DNA from: Deltaproteobacteria bacterium
GTDB taxonomy: Bacteria > Myxococcota > XYA12-FULL-58-9
Reading direction: 5' to 3'
NCBI GenBank assembly: GCA_016218825.1
Contig: JACRCV010000091.1
Span: 175,181 to 239,180, forward strand
Length of the DNA stretch: 64,000 nucleotides
Part shown: positions 17,113 through 24,325 of the stretch, piece by piece
Layout: each line of letters opens with the position of its first letter
Numbering within the stretch: the first letter of the stretch is position 1
The notes under the pieces: model-generated
The model's input: the letters and a program-made list of their open reading frames with translations, nothing else
Databases searched by the model: none
Told to the model about the DNA's origin: nothing
Made by a program: the position numbers and the translations under genes

Positions 17113-20100
17113 ATGACCGAGCCGGTCCGGGATCTTGCGGGAGCGCCGGTGTCCAAGAGCAGGTTGGCTCGGGTGGCCGATGCCTGCGGTCTGCTGACGG
17201 CGACGGTCGGGTTGTTGGTAGTCGTCGGCTGGGCGCTGGAGATCGAGCTGCTGAAGCGGGTGTTGCCGGGCTTCACGGCAATGAAGACCAACACGGCGCT
17301 CGGCCTCGTTCTCGCCGGCGTGGGCCTCTGGTGGCGCCAGCGGTCGGTTCTCAGGGTCACGTTCGGAGCGCTCGTGGCGCTCGTCGGCGCCCTGACGCTC
17401 TGTGAGTACCTCGTAGGGCTGGACCTCGGGATCGATCAGCTCTTCGTACACGAGATCGCGGCGTCGGCCGATTCCGGTCTTGCGCCGGGGCGGATGGCGC
17501 CGGCCACGGCGTTGTCGTTTCTGTTGCTCGGCGCCGCATTGGTGGGCCTCGGGGTCTCGGGGAAGATCGGCCACGCCGCGGAGATCCTGGCGCTCGCGGT
17601 GACCGTGATCGGCGGCCTTTCGTTGCTCGCCTATCCAACCGGGGCCCTGTACCTCCGGCAGCCGCCCGGCTTCGTCAGCGTCGCCTTACACACGGCTGCC
17701 GCGCTCGTGCTCCTTGGCGTCGGCGTCGTTTGCGCCGCCGAGGGCCCGGTCCAGGGCATGCGCTTTCGCGGCACGGGTCGCGCGTTATGGCTCGGCTTCG
17801 GCGTGCTCACCTGTTTGCCGGCAACGATCGGCATCGTGTTCTCCATCAATATCCAAACCCTCGCTGAAGCCATCGACGCCCAGGCTGACGTCGCCCGGCC
17901 GCGTCGCGAGGCGACGATCGAGCTCGAGAACAGGCTCCTCGGCTATTCGCTGGCCGTCCGCCTGGCGGTCGCCGAAGAGGCCCAGGGCGCCGGCGCCGCG
18001 CCCACGCACGCCGCCGACCTCGAGCGCCACCTGGCCGAGTACACCGCGCTCGCGGTCACCGACAGTCAGCGCGCGCTGGCGGCGGGCTTCGCGAGCCGCT
18101 GGCGAGATCTGCGCACTGTGGGCGCAGCGCTCTTGGCCGGCGAGGGTCAGCCAGGCCACGAGGAGCTCGCGCGTTTTGCCGCGCTTCGCACCGAGTTGGA
18201 GGAGCTGCTCGAAGAGAGGATGCGACCCGAGGCCATCGCAGCCTTCGAGGCCCGCAAGGCTATTACGCTCCGGGACCTGCGGTCGACCGCCCGCTTGCCG
18301 CTGTTACTGCTCGTCGTCAGCGTGCTCTTCGCCCTGGTGACGAGCGCGGTTGCCTCCCGGGCGGTCTTGCGGCAGGAGGACGGCCTGCGCGAGCAACGCG
18401 AGTTGCTGCGGGTCACGCTCACCAGCATCGGCGACGCCGTCGTCGCCTGCAACATGGAGCGTCGGGTCACCTTTCTCAACCCCGTCGCCGAATCGCTCAC
18501 CGGCTGGAAGTCCGACGAGGCCTACGGACAGCCGATGGCGACGGTCCTCCGGTTCGTGAACGAGCGGACCCGTGAGCAGGCGCCGGACATCTGGGAGCAG
18601 GTCCTGCGCGAGGGACGGGTCGTCGCGTTGGCGAACCACACCGTCCTGCTCCGGAAAGACGGTCGCGAGATCCCGATCGAGGACAGCGCGGCGCCGATCA
18701 CCGACGGGCTCGGCAACGTGGCCGGCGCGGTGCTCGTGTTCCACGACGTGACCGAGCGGCGGCGTGCCGACGAGCAGTTGAAGAGCAATGCGGCGCGCCT
18801 CAGTCGATCGCAAGAGGTCGCCCACCTCGGCAGTTGGGAGCTGGATCTCACCCGCGACAAGCTGACGTGGTCGGACGAGGTGTATCGGATCTTCGGCCTG
18901 CAGCCGCAGCAGTTCGGTGCCACGTACGAGGCCTTCCTGGACGCTGTGCACCCGGACGATCGGGCGGCCGTCGACGCCGCCTATTCCTCTTCAGTGCGCG
19001 AGGGTCGCGACACCTATGAGATCGAGCACCGGGTGGTGCGCAAGTCGAGCGGCGAAGTCCGCGTCGTCCACGAGAAGTGTGAGCACTTCCGCGACGGTGA
19101 CGGCCGCATCGTCCGTTCCGTCGGCATGGTCCACGACATCACCGAGCGCAAAGCAGCCGAGGACGAGCTCCGCGAGTCCGACCGGCGCAAAGACGAGTTC
19201 CTGGCGATGCTGTCCCACGAGCTGCGCAATCCGCTCACCCCGATCCGCAACAGCCTCCGCATTCTCGAACGGGTCACGCCGGGCGGCGATCAAGCGCGCC
19301 GGGCGCACGCGGTCATCGATCGGCAGGTCGGTCACCTCTCCCGCCTCATCGAAGATCTCCTCGACGTCAACCGCATCAACCGCGGCAAGATCCGCCTGCA
19401 GCGAGCGCGCCTCGACCTCGTCGAGTTGGTGCGCAAAACCTTCGAGGACCACCGCTGCCTCCTCGACGAACGGGAGGTTGCCGTCCAACTGCCGGATGAG
19501 CCGGTCTGGATTGACGGCGACCCGACGCGGCTGGTTCAAACAATCGGGAACCTCATCCACAACGCGGCGAAGTTCACGCCTGCGAACGGCAAGGTCTCGG
19601 TGTCACTCGCCAGAGTCGACGGGCGCGCTGTGCTCGACGTCACCGATACCGGGATAGGCATGGACCCGCAGACCCTCAACCGGCTCTTCGAGCCCTTTGC
19701 GCAAGCCGAACGCAGCCTCGACCGAAGTCAGGGCGGGTTGGGTTTGGGCTTGGCGCTGGTGAAGGGCATGGTCGAGCTCCATGGCGGCGCGGTCAGCGCT
19801 CACAGCGACGGCCCCGGGCGCGGCTCGCGTCTTACCGTGAGCCTCCCGGTTGACGGGCGAGTGGCCGGCGCGTCGGACGCCGCGCCGGCGGTGGTGCGGA
19901 CTGCCACCGGCAAGCGCGTGCTCATCATCGAGGACAACCAGGACGCCGCCGACAGCCTGCGCGAGGCGCTGGAGCTGGATGGACATCGAGTCGTGGTCGC
20001 CTACGACGGCGCGACCGGCCTCGCCCAGGCCCGCCGGTTCAATCCCGACATCGTCGTCTGCGACATCGGTCTGCCCACCGGCATGGATGGCTACGACGTG

Positions 20101-20289
20101 GCACGGGCGTTTCGCGCCGAGGCCGCGCTCAAGGACACGTTCCTGGTGGCGGTGAGCGGCTATGCGCTGCCCGAGGACGTAGAACGCGCTCGAGCGGCCG
20201 GGTTCGAGCGGCATCTCGCCAAGCCGCCGGACCTGACCACGCTCGAGCAGGTCCTGGCGGAGGTTCCCACGCGGCGCGTCTCCAGCTGA
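17113..20289 (+). CDS. Membrane-bound hybrid histidine kinase with PAS-PAS-HisKA-HATPase-receiver
   Basis: A 1,058-residue sensor. The first 245 residues hold about seven hydrophobic segments, a MASE-like membrane sensor. A CHASE3-like helical extracytoplasmic region follows (about 245-390) and another transmembrane helix (LPLLLLVVSVLFALVTS, 396-412). Then come PAS (425-550), PAS_3 (565-690, WSDEVYRIFGLQ), HisKA with MLSHELRNPLTP (His near 702), and an HATPase with NLIHNAAKF, DTGIGM and GLGLGLALVK. The C-terminal receiver (934-1055) has VLIIEDNQDAADSL and its Asp near 984. All catalytic boxes look intact. It is transcribed divergently from the NarX-type kinase and followed 34 bases later by a small kinase-like gene. 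The signal sensed is unknown. Confidence 0.93.
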   Translation: MTEPVRDLAGAPVSKSRLARVADACGLLTATVGLLVVVGWALEIELLKRVLPGFTAMKTNTALGLVLAGVGLWWRQRSVLRVTFGALVALVGALTLCEYLVGLDLGIDQLFVHEIAASADSGLAPGRMAPATALSFLLLGAALVGLGVSGKIGHAAEILALAVTVIGGLSLLAYPTGALYLRQPPGFVSVALHTAAALVLLGVGVVCAAEGPVQGMRFRGTGRALWLGFGVLTCLPATIGIVFSINIQTLAEAIDAQADVARPRREATIELENRLLGYSLAVRLAVAEEAQGAGAAPTHAADLERHLAEYTALAVTDSQRALAAGFASRWRDLRTVGAALLAGEGQPGHEELARFAALRTELEELLEERMRPEAIAAFEARKAITLRDLRSTARLPLLLLVVSVLFALVTSAVASRAVLRQEDGLREQRELLRVTLTSIGDAVVACNMERRVTFLNPVAESLTGWKSDEAYGQPMATVLRFVNERTREQAPDIWEQVLREGRVVALANHTVLLRKDGREIPIEDSAAPITDGLGNVAGAVLVFHDVTERRRADEQLKSNAARLSRSQEVAHLGSWELDLTRDKLTWSDEVYRIFGLQPQQFGATYEAFLDAVHPDDRAAVDAAYSSSVREGRDTYEIEHRVVRKSSGEVRVVHEKCEHFRDGDGRIVRSVGMVHDITERKAAEDELRESDRRKDEFLAMLSHELRNPLTPIRNSLRILERVTPGGDQARRAHAVIDRQVGHLSRLIEDLLDVNRINRGKIRLQRARLDLVELVRKTFEDHRCLLDEREVAVQLPDEPVWIDGDPTRLVQTIGNLIHNAAKFTPANGKVSVSLARVDGRAVLDVTDTGIGMDPQTLNRLFEPFAQAERSLDRSQGGLGLGLALVKGMVELHGGAVSAHSDGPGRGSRLTVSLPVDGRVAGASDAAPAVVRTATGKRVLIIEDNQDAADSLREALELDGHRVVVAYDGATGLAQARRFNPDIVVCDIGLPTGMDGYDVARAFRAEAALKDTFLVAVSGYALPEDVERARAAGFERHLAKPPDLTTLEQVLAEVPTRRVSS

Positions 20290-20323
20290 CGGCGATTTCG
20301 ACCGCCCGGCCACGAGGTGACTC

Positions 20324-21031
20324 ATGAAGAACGATCGGGCTGCACCGACTGTTGGCGCGGGCGCGGCGGCGCCGGCGGTGGCTCTCGCCAAGCTCCGTAG
20401 CCAGCATGAGGAGCTGTTGCGAGCGATGTCCCACGACCTGCGAACCCCGCTCGTGGCGCTGCTGTTGCAGGCGCAGCTCCTGGAGCGATCGCTGGACCAC
20501 CGAGACCCCAACCAGCGGCGCGCCGCGACGATCATTGCCATGACCCACGAGTTCACCGCCATCATCGACCGGCTGGTGGAGACCGCCCGCCTGGAAGCTG
20601 GCATCGCGAAGTTGGACACCGAGAGCGTCGCCCTCCCGGAGCTGCTCCGCGACCTCGTGAGCCAGCTGCCGCCGACCGAAGGCAGCCGGGTCGTGCTGAC
20701 GGTCGACGACGCGTTTCCCGATATCGTCCTCGACCGGTGCCGCATCCAAACGGTCATCAAGACCCTCCTGCAGCGGGCGACGCGGGCCTCGCCCGGGAGG
20801 ATCGGGGTGTCGCTGTCGCGATGCGGCGAGGAGCTACGCCTCGCGGTGCGTGACCAGGGTCCGCCGGCGGCGCCGCTGGCGCGCAGTCTTGCCGCCGAGA
20901 CCGGCGCAACCTACGACAGCATCTACCTCGCGAAGGTCATCGTCGAAGCGCATGGGGGCCGCCTGTGGTTCGAGACCGCGACCGACCAGGGGAACACCGC
21001 GATCTTCGCGCTACCGCTGAGCTCCGAGTGA
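20324..21031 (+). CDS. Small histidine-kinase-like protein with degenerate ATPase domain
   Basis: A 235-residue cytoplasmic protein. A HisKA helix pair carries LLRAMSHDLRTPLVALLLQA, with the phospho-acceptor His near residue 37. The ATPase-like half has a G1-like motif VRDQGPPAAP and a C-terminal strand-helix VIVEAHGGRLWFET. The N-box region reads IQTVIKTLLQRATRA, without the Asn that co-ordinates Mg-ATP, and the usual GxGLGL G2 loop is absent, so ATP binding may be lost. ATG 20324 follows a GAGGTGA ribosome-binding site 34 bases after the hybrid kinase, suggesting one operon. It could be a phosphotransfer or modulatory subunit of that kinase; this is inference. Confidence 0.78.
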   Translation: MKNDRAAPTVGAGAAAPAVALAKLRSQHEELLRAMSHDLRTPLVALLLQAQLLERSLDHRDPNQRRAATIIAMTHEFTAIIDRLVETARLEAGIAKLDTESVALPELLRDLVSQLPPTEGSRVVLTVDDAFPDIVLDRCRIQTVIKTLLQRATRASPGRIGVSLSRCGEELRLAVRDQGPPAAPLARSLAAETGATYDSIYLAKVIVEAHGGRLWFETATDQGNTAIFALPLSSE

Positions 21032-21130
21032 AGTCGTCTCGTCACGCGTCGGGAGCGCGGCCCCGTCGGAGCTGACCCGGTCGCGGCCGGCCCGCTTGCT
21101 GCGATCCATCAGCCCGTCGGCGCGTTTTTC
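21011..21130 (-). pseudogene. 3' remnant of a GGDEF (diguanylate cyclase) gene
   Basis: On the minus strand the frame ending at 21011 encodes EKRADGLMDRSKRAGRDRV, a good match to the C-terminal helix of GGDEF domains (the ADxALYxAKxxGRNRV pattern). Upstream of about 21130 the similarity stops and the catalytic GGDEF core is absent. I read this as the leftover tail of a cyclase gene truncated at its 5' side, next to the probable left edge of the integrative element. It overlaps the last 21 bases of the kinase-like gene convergently. Confidence 0.5.
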
Positions 21131-21549
21131 AGGCTCTGCATCGGGCGCCCCTACGATCTCTTTACAGCGTCGCAGGTCGCATCCTGGGGGTACGACGACG
21201 ATTTCTTGTCGAATCCTGCAACTGCCTGACACTGCGAGAGAATCAGGAGAGGCCGAGGACCATCAGAACCATCAGGTACGACGACCGCTGCGATGAAGTC
21301 CGGTCCTCATCTTGGTCGGGAACCTCGGCTTGAAGTTCCTCGACCTGGACCTTCTGGGTGAAGATCCTCGACCTGGACCTTCTGGGTGAAGATTCTCGAC
21401 CTGGACCTTCTGGGTGAAGGTCCTCGACCTGGACCCTTGGGTGAAGATCCTCGACCTGGATCTCGACTTGAAGATCCTCGACCTCGATTCTCACGGCACC
21501 GGCCTCGCCGTGATACGGTCCCCGCTCCACCACTTTGAGGAGGGGACCA
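21131..21549. other. Non-coding left part of the integrative element
   Basis: About 420 bases without a supported gene. It holds the 28-bp tandem repeats at 21333-21497 and, just before 21550, a strong ribosome-binding site (AGGAGG). The stretch at 21131-21332 has no structure that I can assign. Confidence 0.45.
21333..21497. repeat. Tandem 27-28-bp repeats forming hairpins at unit junctions
   Basis: Units begin at 21333, 21361, 21389, 21417, 21444 and 21471 (partial). The first three are 28 bases and the next two are 27. Each reads roughly AAGATCCTCGACCTGGACC followed by TTCTGGGTG. Across the junctions GGACCTTC-TGGGT-GAAGGTCC forms a hairpin, perfect at 21404-21424 and with one or two mismatches at the others. 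The period is not a multiple of three in the first units, which argues against coding. The units are contiguous, so this is not a CRISPR array. Confidence 0.85.
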
Positions 21550-22467
21550 GTGGACAAGAATCCCTACGCCGACATCGCGTACCCCAAGCACCTCACGCTG
21601 GAATGGCTGGTGTCCAAGGGCCTGCCGATCTACGTGCGAAACATGACGAGACCGAGAGGTTCGATCGCCGTCAACTTCATGCAGGCCAACGTCAGGGCCA
21701 AGGTCGTGAAGATTCCCAGGACGAACCTGCCGATCCACTTCGACAGACAACTGAGTCCAGAGATCCTGCTCGATAGCGAGGACCTACGCCAATGCGTCAG
21801 GATGGGCGTGCTCGAACTCGTCCGGCCGGATGTGGCGTGGGCGGAGTTGGCGGTCGCGGGGACCGATGGGGTCCTCGCAGGAGACGGGTTTCCTCGGGAA
21901 CCTGGAGGCCAGGACGCGGCCGGACCGCAGACCGCCTGGGAGCACGACTTCCACGCACGGATGGCCGGGTTCGAGGCGGCGGTGCCGGGGACCGGGACCT
22001 CGGTGTCGGTCAAGGTCCGGGTCACGTCCGGCTGCTTCCATCGCGAGCATTCCCCTCGGGCCTACGAGATGATCGACCGATGGCTGCAAGCCACGCCGGA
22101 TCGATGCCGGTTCGAGGAGCATGAGAGTGGCCCGGAACTACTCGTGTGGGTCGCGGTGGGGACGGCCGCGATCACCCTCGCCAAGAGCGTCATCGACCTC
22201 GTGACCGCGATCATCAAGGCCCGGGCCGATGGCGTGCGGCACGGAGACCATCCGTCAGATCCAGTCGAACTGATCGTCCGGGTCACGAGCGAGAAGGGTG
22301 TCCGGGAAGAACGCCTCGTTCGTTTCTCCGCCAGCGACTCGGTGACCGGCACGCAAGTCGGCAGGGCTCTCACCGAGGGGATCTCCAAGCTGCTGCCGCC
22401 GCGACCGGAGACGGGGACGGCATCCTCGATCTTGTCTCGATCATGGAGTCGAAGTTGGCGACGATGA
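21550..22467 (+). CDS. Unrecognised 305-residue cargo protein of the integrative element
   Basis: GTG 21550 is chosen because AGGAGG lies seven bases upstream. The N-terminal 100 residues (NPYADIAYPKHLTLEWL ... LLDSEDLRQCVRMGVLELV) look like a compact beta-rich domain with an acidic helical end. A variable linker follows. The C-terminal part has a second beta segment (SVSVKVRVTSGCFHREH), the motif EEHESGPE, a 29-residue hydrophobic helix (LLVWVAVGTAAITLAKSV ...), and a final beta segment (PVELIVRVTSEKGVREERL). The hydrophobic helix flanked by beta strands recalls membrane-associated effector modules of bacterial conflict systems, but I cannot name a family. It overlaps the excisionase gene by 25 bases. 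Function unknown. Confidence 0.65.
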   Translation: MDKNPYADIAYPKHLTLEWLVSKGLPIYVRNMTRPRGSIAVNFMQANVRAKVVKIPRTNLPIHFDRQLSPEILLDSEDLRQCVRMGVLELVRPDVAWAELAVAGTDGVLAGDGFPREPGGQDAAGPQTAWEHDFHARMAGFEAAVPGTGTSVSVKVRVTSGCFHREHSPRAYEMIDRWLQATPDRCRFEEHESGPELLVWVAVGTAAITLAKSVIDLVTAIIKARADGVRHGDHPSDPVELIVRVTSEKGVREERLVRFSASDSVTGTQVGRALTEGISKLLPPRPETGTASSILSRSWSRSWRR

Positions 22468-22790
22468 TCCGGGAGATCGTGCGGCAGGAGATCGCTGCGG
22501 CCACGGCAGAACATCAGAAGGCTCCTGCGCCGGAAGTTCTGACCACGGAGCAGGCTGCGGAGATCGCCAACGTCACGCCCGCGACCGTTCGGCAGTGGGT
22601 CCGCGAGGGGAGCCTTCGGGCCACACGCATCCACGGCTCCCGGCAACTTCGCATCCTTCGTAACGACCTCCTCCGGCATCTCTGCGGTGACGAGGCAACG
22701 AGACTCGATGGCGACGCAGAGATCGATCAGAAGGCCCGCGAGATCATGCGTCGCCGGGATAGACGTGGATCTGCCACACCCTCACGGTAG
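22443..22790 (+). CDS. Excisionase-like helix-turn-helix protein
   Basis: A 115-residue protein. After a helical N-terminus (MESKLATMIREIVRQEIAAA) comes a MerR-like HTH_17 excisionase domain (about residues 38-85): LTTEQAAEIANVTPATVRQW, then VREGSLRATRIHGSRQLRI. The tail is basic. Such proteins bend the attachment site and steer tyrosine integrases toward excision. ATG 22443 starts inside the end of the cargo gene and the integrase begins 20 bases after its stop, so the three genes look co-transcribed. Confidence 0.8.
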   Translation: MESKLATMIREIVRQEIAAATAEHQKAPAPEVLTTEQAAEIANVTPATVRQWVREGSLRATRIHGSRQLRILRNDLLRHLCGDEATRLDGDAEIDQKAREIMRRRDRRGSATPSR

Positions 22791-22810
22791 GATTAGCGTG
22801 GAGAAGAAAC

Positions 22811-24325
22811 ATGGGTTCAGTCTACAGACGCGGCCGGGTTCTCTGGCTCAAGTACAGGGACTACGATGGCCAGTGGGTCGCTGAATCGACTGAACTCGGC
22901 CTCGGCGAGGAGAAGCAGGCCCAACGACTTCTAGAAAACATCGAGAACCGGATTGCATCGGGCTCCGAGCTTCATGATGGAGAGGTCGGGCCGGTCTCGG
23001 TCAGGCGGTACGCCGCCCACTTCATCAAAGAGCGTCGGGCCCTCGGGATCGCGAGTGCAGACGATGACGAAAGGCGGCTGAGGCTCCACATCCTGCCGGT
23101 TCTCGGGAAGATGGACATGGTTGCGGTCAGACCGAGGCACGTCCGACAGCTTGTTCGAGACCTCCGCAAGCGAGTTCGCGCTGGACGGACCGTGATCAAC
23201 ATCTACGCGAGCCTCCGCAATATGTACAACAATGCTCTGGTGGATGAGATCGTCGAGGTCTCTCCCTGCTGCTTGAAGAGGAGGGATCTCCCACCGAACC
23301 GGGATCGTGATCCGGCATGGCGAGAGACCGCCGTGTTCACCGTGGATGAGGTCGTGACCTTGATCTCGGACAAGCGCATCCCGTTGAGCCATCGCGTTCG
23401 CTACGCGATCCTGGGGCTCGCTGGTCCTCGGGTTGGCGAAGCCGTGGCCCGCAGGTGGCGCGACTACGATCCCGAGGTGAAGCCCTTGGGCAAGCTGGCC
23501 ATCATCTCCAAGTATAGCAGCCATCGGAAGCGCGAAGAACCGGCTACCAAGAGCGGTGTCGTACGCTACGTTCCTGTACACCTGACGTTGGCCCGCGTGC
23601 TCCGCGAGTGGAAGCTGCATGGCTGGGCCGAGCAGATGGGCCGCCACCCCACGGCCGACGATCTCATCCTGCCCGGCGATGTTGACGGTCACCTCCCCAA
23701 CTACCAGGTCCGGGTGGACTTCTTGCACGATCTGAAAAAGCTCGGCATGCGGCGGCGTCGCGTCCACGACCTGCGGCGCTCCTTCGTTTCAATCGGTCGC
23801 GCTCACGGGCTCCGAAAGGATGTCATGGAGTGGATGACCCACGGGGCTCACGGCGACATCATCGACATGTACACCACGATGCCGTGGGAAGTGCTCTGTG
23901 AAGAACTGGTCAAGCTGCGGGTCGAACTGCGGACCGGGACCGTCGTTCAACTACCCGTCGCCGTCGCCGCAGGCACCACATCGCCGACGAAAGCCGACGA
24001 TCACGCCTCACGAGATTCCGCGCAGTTGCAGCCGGCCTTGGTACAGTCTTGGTACAGTCGCAGCGCGTCAAAATCGACATCAACGAAGATTGGCGGAAGC
24101 GCACGAGAATCGAACTCGCCTAAGCCGTTTCTCACAGCCTACGTCGGTTTTGAAGACCGGGGGCGGCACCAGCCAGCCACGCGCTTCCGCGGCTCGGATA
24201 GCACAGGAGCACACCGGTTACCACGGTCTCGTCGCCGGCCGCCGGCGCCCGGCCGTCGAGGTTTGACCGCGAACGGGAGCGGGTGCTACACAGGCCGGTC
24301 TGTCTTTGAAAGTGATGGTGAGTGA
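22811..24325 (+). CDS. Tyrosine recombinase (integrase) with tRNA-encoded C-terminal extension
   Basis: A phage-type tyrosine integrase. Residues 1-60 are an arm-binding-like domain (GSVYRRGRVLWLKYRDYDG), 65-145 a SAM-like core-binding domain, and 170-370 the catalytic domain. Catalytic residues visible are Arg207 (GPRVGEAV), Lys247, His319 and Arg322 (VHDLRRS), His344 and Tyr354 (IDMYTT). The catalytic domain ends well before residue 427, where the frame enters the antisense of the selC tRNA and continues to a stop next to the tig start. Residues 427-504 are therefore host-derived and probably not functional. The enzyme itself looks intact. Confidence 0.9.
   Translation: MGSVYRRGRVLWLKYRDYDGQWVAESTELGLGEEKQAQRLLENIENRIASGSELHDGEVGPVSVRRYAAHFIKERRALGIASADDDERRLRLHILPVLGKMDMVAVRPRHVRQLVRDLRKRVRAGRTVINIYASLRNMYNNALVDEIVEVSPCCLKRRDLPPNRDRDPAWRETAVFTVDEVVTLISDKRIPLSHRVRYAILGLAGPRVGEAVARRWRDYDPEVKPLGKLAIISKYSSHRKREEPATKSGVVRYVPVHLTLARVLREWKLHGWAEQMGRHPTADDLILPGDVDGHLPNYQVRVDFLHDLKKLGMRRRRVHDLRRSFVSIGRAHGLRKDVMEWMTHGAHGDIIDMYTTMPWEVLCEELVKLRVELRTGTVVQLPVAVAAGTTSPTKADDHASRDSAQLQPALVQSWYSRSASKSTSTKIGGSARESNSPKPFLTAYVGFEDRGRHQPATRFRGSDSTGAHRLPRSRRRPPAPGRRGLTANGSGCYTGRSVFESDGE
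24037..24058. repeat. Tandem 11-bp direct repeat near the attachment site
   Basis: CTTGGTACAGT occurs twice back to back at 24037-24047 and 24048-24058, 33 bases from the tRNA 3' end and inside the integrase frame. Paired short repeats beside an attachment core are typical arm-type binding sites for tyrosine integrases. Binding is inferred. Confidence 0.5.
24091..24188 (-). tRNA. selC: tRNA-Sec (anticodon TCA)
   Basis: A 98-base selenocysteine tRNA that carries a specific Sec insertion system. The acceptor stem pairs GGAAGCGC with GCGCTTCC over eight base pairs, longer than in normal tRNAs. The D stem is GTGGC/GCCGC, and the anticodon loop CTTCAAA has TCA at 24151-24153. A long variable arm (GGCTGT/ACGGCT) follows, and the T arm is GCGAG-TTCGATT-CTCGT. 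The discriminator base is G and CCA is encoded. The long acceptor stem, long variable arm and UCA anticodon are diagnostic. The 3' end is the attachment site of the adjacent integrative element, and the tRNA gene itself remains whole. Confidence 0.95.

Follow-up and report, generated by a model that had tools for sequence, protein, structure and literature searches.

We analysed a 64,000-nucleotide stretch of the genome of a Deltaproteobacteria bacterium (GenBank assembly GCA_016218825.1, contig JACRCV010000091.1, positions 175,181 to 239,180; hereafter the window), in which a tyrosine integrase gene and two companion genes lie against the selenocysteine tRNA gene, selC. ARAGORN placed selC (tRNA-Sec) on the minus strand at 24091-24188, the sole RNA gene it called in the window, and the match to Rfam RF01852 scored 73.2 bits against a gathering score of 47. 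The gene is 98 nt long and intact, with a single base difference to the selC of the same-genus genome used for comparison (G001); selB is present in the window's own genome, above its curated cut-off. The three genes are all on the plus strand. A 305-residue cargo protein is encoded at 21550-22467 (GTG start preceded by GAGGAGG, stop codon 22465-22467) and is followed, with an overlap of 25 nt, by an excisionase-like helix-turn-helix (HTH) gene at 22443-22790 (ATG at 22443, stop codon 22788-22790). After a gap of 20 nt, the integrase gene opens at 22811 (ATG, preceded by GGAGAAG) and runs for 504 codons to 24325, where tig begins; its frame contains no stop ahead of selC. An earlier note on this sequence had described an intact selC with an integrase, an excisionase-like gene and a single cargo gene against its 3' end, and ARAGORN, Rfam, a PHROGs integrase match and the HTH_17 and TIGR01764 profiles bear this out. 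As a refinement, the integrase frame crosses the whole of selC in antisense.

The lower GC content that the note had reported was also confirmed. GC content was 62.9% at 21032-24090 versus 69.8% in the remaining window, and when the DNA between a point 60 kb left of the window and base 24000 was divided into 28 bins of 3 kb, the bin starting at 21001 was the lowest (0.631; next lowest, 0.658). GC at third codon positions (GC3) was 0.73-0.80 in the cargo, excisionase-like and integrase genes, versus 0.865-0.966 in six flanking genes. The last flanking gene on the left ends at 21031, past which GC content, measured in 100-bp steps, drops, and we place a presumed left junction zone at 21032-21330. 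Composition is the sole support for a left edge at 21140.

We compared the locus with that of G001, the sole same-genus genome in the comparison, in which selC and tig have the same divergent arrangement as in the window. The nucleotide alignment of the two genomes starts at 24091, the last base of selC, and extends into tig and clpP. No match to the integrase, the excisionase-like gene or the cargo gene was found near selC of G001. That a same-genus genome lacks the trio and that homology stops exactly at the 3' end of the tRNA gene supports an insertion into the 3' end of selC, on the strength of one distant genome; on all the evidence, the insertion is in all likelihood real. A related genome with an empty site, with which the earlier note had proposed a comparison, exists in this one case.

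The integrase is of the type found in Myxococcus phage Mx8, whose Int it matched with 38% identity over 98% of the query (residues 1-416 of 425; E 1e-66). Twelve phage records matched the integrase, and the four that covered at least 80% of the query were all Mx8. The PHROGs integrase match was strong (2e-26); Pfam matches were weak (E 0.00024 to 0.037), every one under its curated cut-off. Residues R207, H319, R322, H344 and Y354, which we take to be those expected at the integrase active site, were kept in the alignment. The excisionase-like protein (22443-22787) matched HTH_17 at 4.9e-12 and TIGR01764 ('excise') above its cut-off, and its profile also picked up Mx8 uoi, which suggests that the gene is an excisionase-like counterpart of uoi. 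From the homology break and the cores of related elements described below, we place a presumed crossover core (attR) at 24091-24114, corresponding to the 3' end of selC, with an estimated inner limit. It falls within the open integrase frame. Ahead of it on the plus strand, at 24038-24059 and thus 32-53 bp before the tRNA end, a repeat search found a tandem 11-bp pair, TTGGTACAGTC, equalled in 0.5% of control stretches; we presume these to be the right-end arm-type sites of the integrase.

This arrangement closely follows that of Mx8. In the Mx8 GenBank record, uoi lies just upstream of int, the recombination core lies inside intP at 2387-2415, and a repeat at 2315-2336, placed correspondingly ahead of the core, reads as a tandem 11-bp pair, so that the two systems share a homologous integrase, an upstream HTH excisionase gene, a core inside the int frame and a tandem 11-bp repeat before the core. 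They differ in target, which is selC in the window and a tRNA-Asp-type sequence in Mx8, whose core matches the cores of two tRNA-Asp relatives. They also differ in that phage genes and a left attachment site are both lacking from the window segment, and in that its cargo gene overlaps the excisionase gene. According to a review, int acquires a different 3' end when Mx8 integrates, and its specificity changes (PMC6070905). A second paper describes a 112-residue tail that is swapped for 13 residues, with lower activity (PMC4701971). Islander accommodates integrases that extend across attP and names Mx8 among them (PMC4383910). Search listings of the literature turned up no description of an Mx8-type integrase at selC.

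To place the locus among its relatives, we searched the phylum, taken to be Myxococcota from the relation to Mx8, with the integrase, which matched in 53 of 146 genomes at E 0.001. For 18 loci, most of them among the best matches and two from the window's own genome, wider DNA was fetched. Fifteen of these integrases are directed into a tRNA or tmRNA gene from its 3' end (tRNA-Asp in five, tmRNA in four, tRNA-Glu in two, and tRNA-Lys, -Leu, -Gln and -Val in one each), and the integrase frame enters the RNA gene in 12 of the 15. No RNA gene adjoins the remaining three, namely the two loci of the same genome and one at a contig end. Five further loci had short flanks, and an RNA gene adjoins in three of them. 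selC was the target at none of the 18 fetched or five further loci. An excisionase-like frame was found upstream of the integrase in 13 of the 18 loci, and in Mx8, in one pass, and in 15 of the 18 after iteration. The two same-genome integrases (37-38% identity; L055 at C82:30697-31599 and L056 at C82:95567-96517) have no adjoining RNA gene in the fetched DNA. A broken Mx8-type integrase also lies at a contig end in a genome of the same order (L139, G007:C183), with no RNA gene in the 8.1 kb available.

For eight loci we fetched 28-69 kb of upstream DNA. In seven, the RNA 3' end recurs upstream, as a perfect copy of 22-31 bp in six and as a 33-bp copy with two mismatches in the seventh; the distances are approximately 10.0, 12.2, 12.3, 35.0, 36.2, 50.4 and 53.3 kb. 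The cores of these seven bounded relatives span 22-33 bp and start at most three bases from the RNA 3' end. In five of the seven, the arm unit of the respective element recurs as an inverted pair inside the left copy (0 of 400 control stretches in each case). Like the window, such islands of 10-53 kb (for example in G075, G011 and G081) carry an HTH gene and integrase pair convergent on an RNA 3' end; unlike the window, seven of the eight have a left copy of that end. Among the three shortest, a D5-type primase-helicase is encoded in two, accompanied in one by a terminase and a resolvase, whereas the window segment has none of these. The element with all three genes is a 10-kb one at tRNA-Glu in G075 (L059/L090), which is bounded by exact 23-bp repeats and has excisionase and integrase genes as well; it is possibly a phage satellite. 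In the window segment, the replication or packaging-interference genes that mark a phage satellite were not found: it holds three genes only, with no such PHROGs match apart from the HTH matches shared by the excisionase.

No left end was found for the window segment. With up to three mismatches allowed, selC was the only place in the assembly at which the 20- and 21-base selC cores occurred, a partial 20-base match on contig C85 excepted. This match (two mismatches) was rejected as a left site, as it spans only the T-arm side and does not include the 3' end of the tRNA. The assembly-wide search includes the 197 kb by which the contig continues further left. A gap-free local search detected no core-like sequence in the 84 kb to the left, and narrower searches, of the window and of 24 kb to the left, gave no copy of the selC 3' end. 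The failure to find a left attachment site, already reported in the earlier note, was upheld over a wider range, and the left copy for which the note had suggested searching 15-60 kb on the left did not appear. In the Islander sense of a tDNA island, selC provides the intact RNA gene at one end, and no displaced RNA gene fragment was found at the other. Arm sites gave a similar result. The exact inverted pair TGTACCA...TGTACCA occurred once, as the right-end pair itself, and no left arm pair was found, with only background-level pairs near 21 kb. The best left arm-like pair (two mismatches, approximately 38 kb left of selC) lies in an ordinary-looking coding stretch with no core and was taken as a chance match. 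Synteny with G001 and with genome G002 did not place the left edge of the segment either.

Since both the left core and the left arm pair are missing and the low-GC stretch is isolated, a remnant is the simplest reading: the segment from 21.1 to 24.09 kb is probably what remains, on the right-hand side, of a larger element whose left end disappeared some time after insertion at the selC 3' end. Several observations weigh against this. The genes left of the segment and those of G001 beyond selC do not match between the two genomes, no close relative of the gene immediately to the left turned up in 19 other genomes, and the absence of the trio within the genus is known from one genome only. Nor is the lack of a left site peculiar to remnants, as the eighth relative had no core copy in 28 kb, and the left arm pair was not above background in two of the seven bounded relatives. 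Of 17 sequences examined, only 8 have a right-end tandem pair that at most 5% of control stretches equal, the window (0.5%) and Mx8 (0%) among them. A promoter-like site was looked for and none was found. With the left boundary never seen, a larger island is also conceivable.

Such an island would run left past the histidine kinase genes that flank the segment and end at a mutated left site. The kinase gene without close relatives, the absence from the window of the G001 genes left of selC, and the size of the bounded relatives (up to 53 kb) are consistent with it, but GC content is host-like in all 27 other 3-kb bins (0.658-0.732), the kinase genes have a GC3 of 0.87-0.88, and the assembly, in which the contig runs another 197 kb to the left, contains no core copy at up to three mismatches. 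We therefore consider a larger island unlikely. The earlier note had instead proposed a mini integrative element, perhaps a satellite or a compact delivery unit for the cargo gene. A complete element of about 3 kb, comprising only the cargo, excisionase and integrase genes, would need a left site that has diverged beyond recognition or movement by proteins acting in trans. It would account for a low-GC segment of about 3 kb that is isolated in 84 kb, for the tight packing of the three frames and for an integrase that retains the presumed active-site residues. However, neither a left arm pair nor a core copy (up to three mismatches in 20-21 bp) was found, the partial C85 match aside, the bounded relatives measure 10-53 kb, and the trio was found nowhere else. 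The cargo was absent from all 18 integrase loci, and the integrase, the excisionase and the N-terminal domain of the cargo were absent from all 23 loci of the cargo family. A complete mini element is accordingly improbable, and the satellite and delivery-unit proposals find no support either. What is supported of the note is an insertion at the 3' end of selC, favoured by the empty G001 site, the break at 24091, the composition, the near absence of the cargo from the other genomes of the phylum and the position of 15 of 18 such integrases at RNA 3' ends. The note had named two findings that would count against it, the lack of an empty site and the failure of the three genes to co-occur elsewhere; the first turned out in its favour and the second against it. 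Finally, the three genes might be old residents beside selC that were lost in G001 without any insertion. G001 is distant (its tig is 62-63% identical to that of the window), and absence could reflect loss; but a phage integrase type that adjoins RNA genes, a break exactly at the tRNA 3' end, a foreign composition and a cargo otherwise missing in the phylum make this explanation hardly credible.

Under the remnant reading, recombination by the integrase would have joined the final 22-33 bp of selC to a matching stretch of a circle, restoring selC, and the tandem 11-bp pair would bind the arm domain of the integrase. As in Mx8, the free circle would encode another integrase tail than the present one, which is read antisense to selC. 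Given the 25-nt overlap and the 20-nt gap, the cargo, excisionase and integrase may be translated from one transcript. A remnant without a left site is predicted not to excise alone. The insertion belongs to a known kind; its target gene is new and its cargo unusual, and selC joins the list of targets of Mx8-type integrases. These integrases have been studied in one phage, yet they are common at tRNA and tmRNA genes in this phylum, and their frame usually enters its own target. Enterobacterial islands inserted at selC are known and share the target gene with the window segment; the only phage integrase that covers most of the window integrase is that of Mx8.

We then examined the cargo protein (21550-22464), for which no Pfam match was found. 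Its residues 22-97 matched phrog_17686, a jumbo-phage-like N-terminal domain (PHROGs 6.6e-13), and tblastn against phage records gave weak matches in 57, largely Erwinia and Dickeya phages of approximately 260 kb (best E 4e-5). The C-terminal domain (approximately residues 126-285) belongs to a family of small proteins with 607 homologues, 120 of which were listed. The motifs GCFHREHSP and EEHESGPE are invariant or nearly so in the family alignment, and no Pfam family was found for it. The AlphaFold model of this domain in a relative (P0037) shows an alpha/beta domain with a mean pLDDT of 89.6, without a convincing match among solved structures. PADLOC returned no family for the cargo, P0037 or another protein of the set (P0034) at E up to 0.1. 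The C-terminal domain may resemble a component of the EACC1 conflict system; Pfam PF19953 (EACC1) had no match in the window's own genome at E 0.001 (117 genomes searched), a search whose reach does not extend to a distant relation. Among 194 other genomes of the phylum, the cargo gave one marginal hit (E 9.3e-4, 32% identity over 77 residues, two stops), and its N-terminal domain rose above the marginal level in none; that domain was found in the window's own genome.

The 23 cargo-family loci comprise 22 from the species genome collection, in several phyla by record title, and one viral contig. We surveyed 30 neighbouring genes, picked by eye and with no background control, in 20 of these loci, and found defence-like neighbours in 7 of the 23. 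In a Schekmanbacteria record (L099, 5954-12236), the homologue lies on one strand between an LmuB-like ATPase and an HmaA-like helicase. A PDC-S31 gene and an HmaA-like helicase lie near the homologue in L106, PDC-S31 in L121, a TIR-HEAT protein in L113, and a PDC-S09 nucleotidyltransferase in L102, L105 and L108, with a HepT-like partner as well in L102. As the neighbours were picked by eye and lack a background control, a defence role for the cargo family is a lead only. The survey nevertheless flags an uncharacterised and patchily spread domain beside defence-like genes in some loci. A far bolder proposal would make the locus the first Mx8-type module at selC and the cargo an undescribed anti-phage protein. 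Its jumbo-phage domain would serve as a decoy or sensor fused to a domain from defence loci, and its production together with the excisionase and integrase would let mobility and protection rise together. We regard this combination as speculative and rather improbable.

Two further features lie in or beside the left part of the segment. Two adjoining histidine kinase genes occupy 17113-21031, the second being the one without a close relative in the 19 other genomes searched. Just before the cargo gene, on the plus strand at 21331-21484, lies a tandem array of a 28-bp unit with approximately 5.6 copies and 89% matches (Tandem Repeats Finder and repeat search). It occurs once in the genome, a 201-bp query matching only itself.

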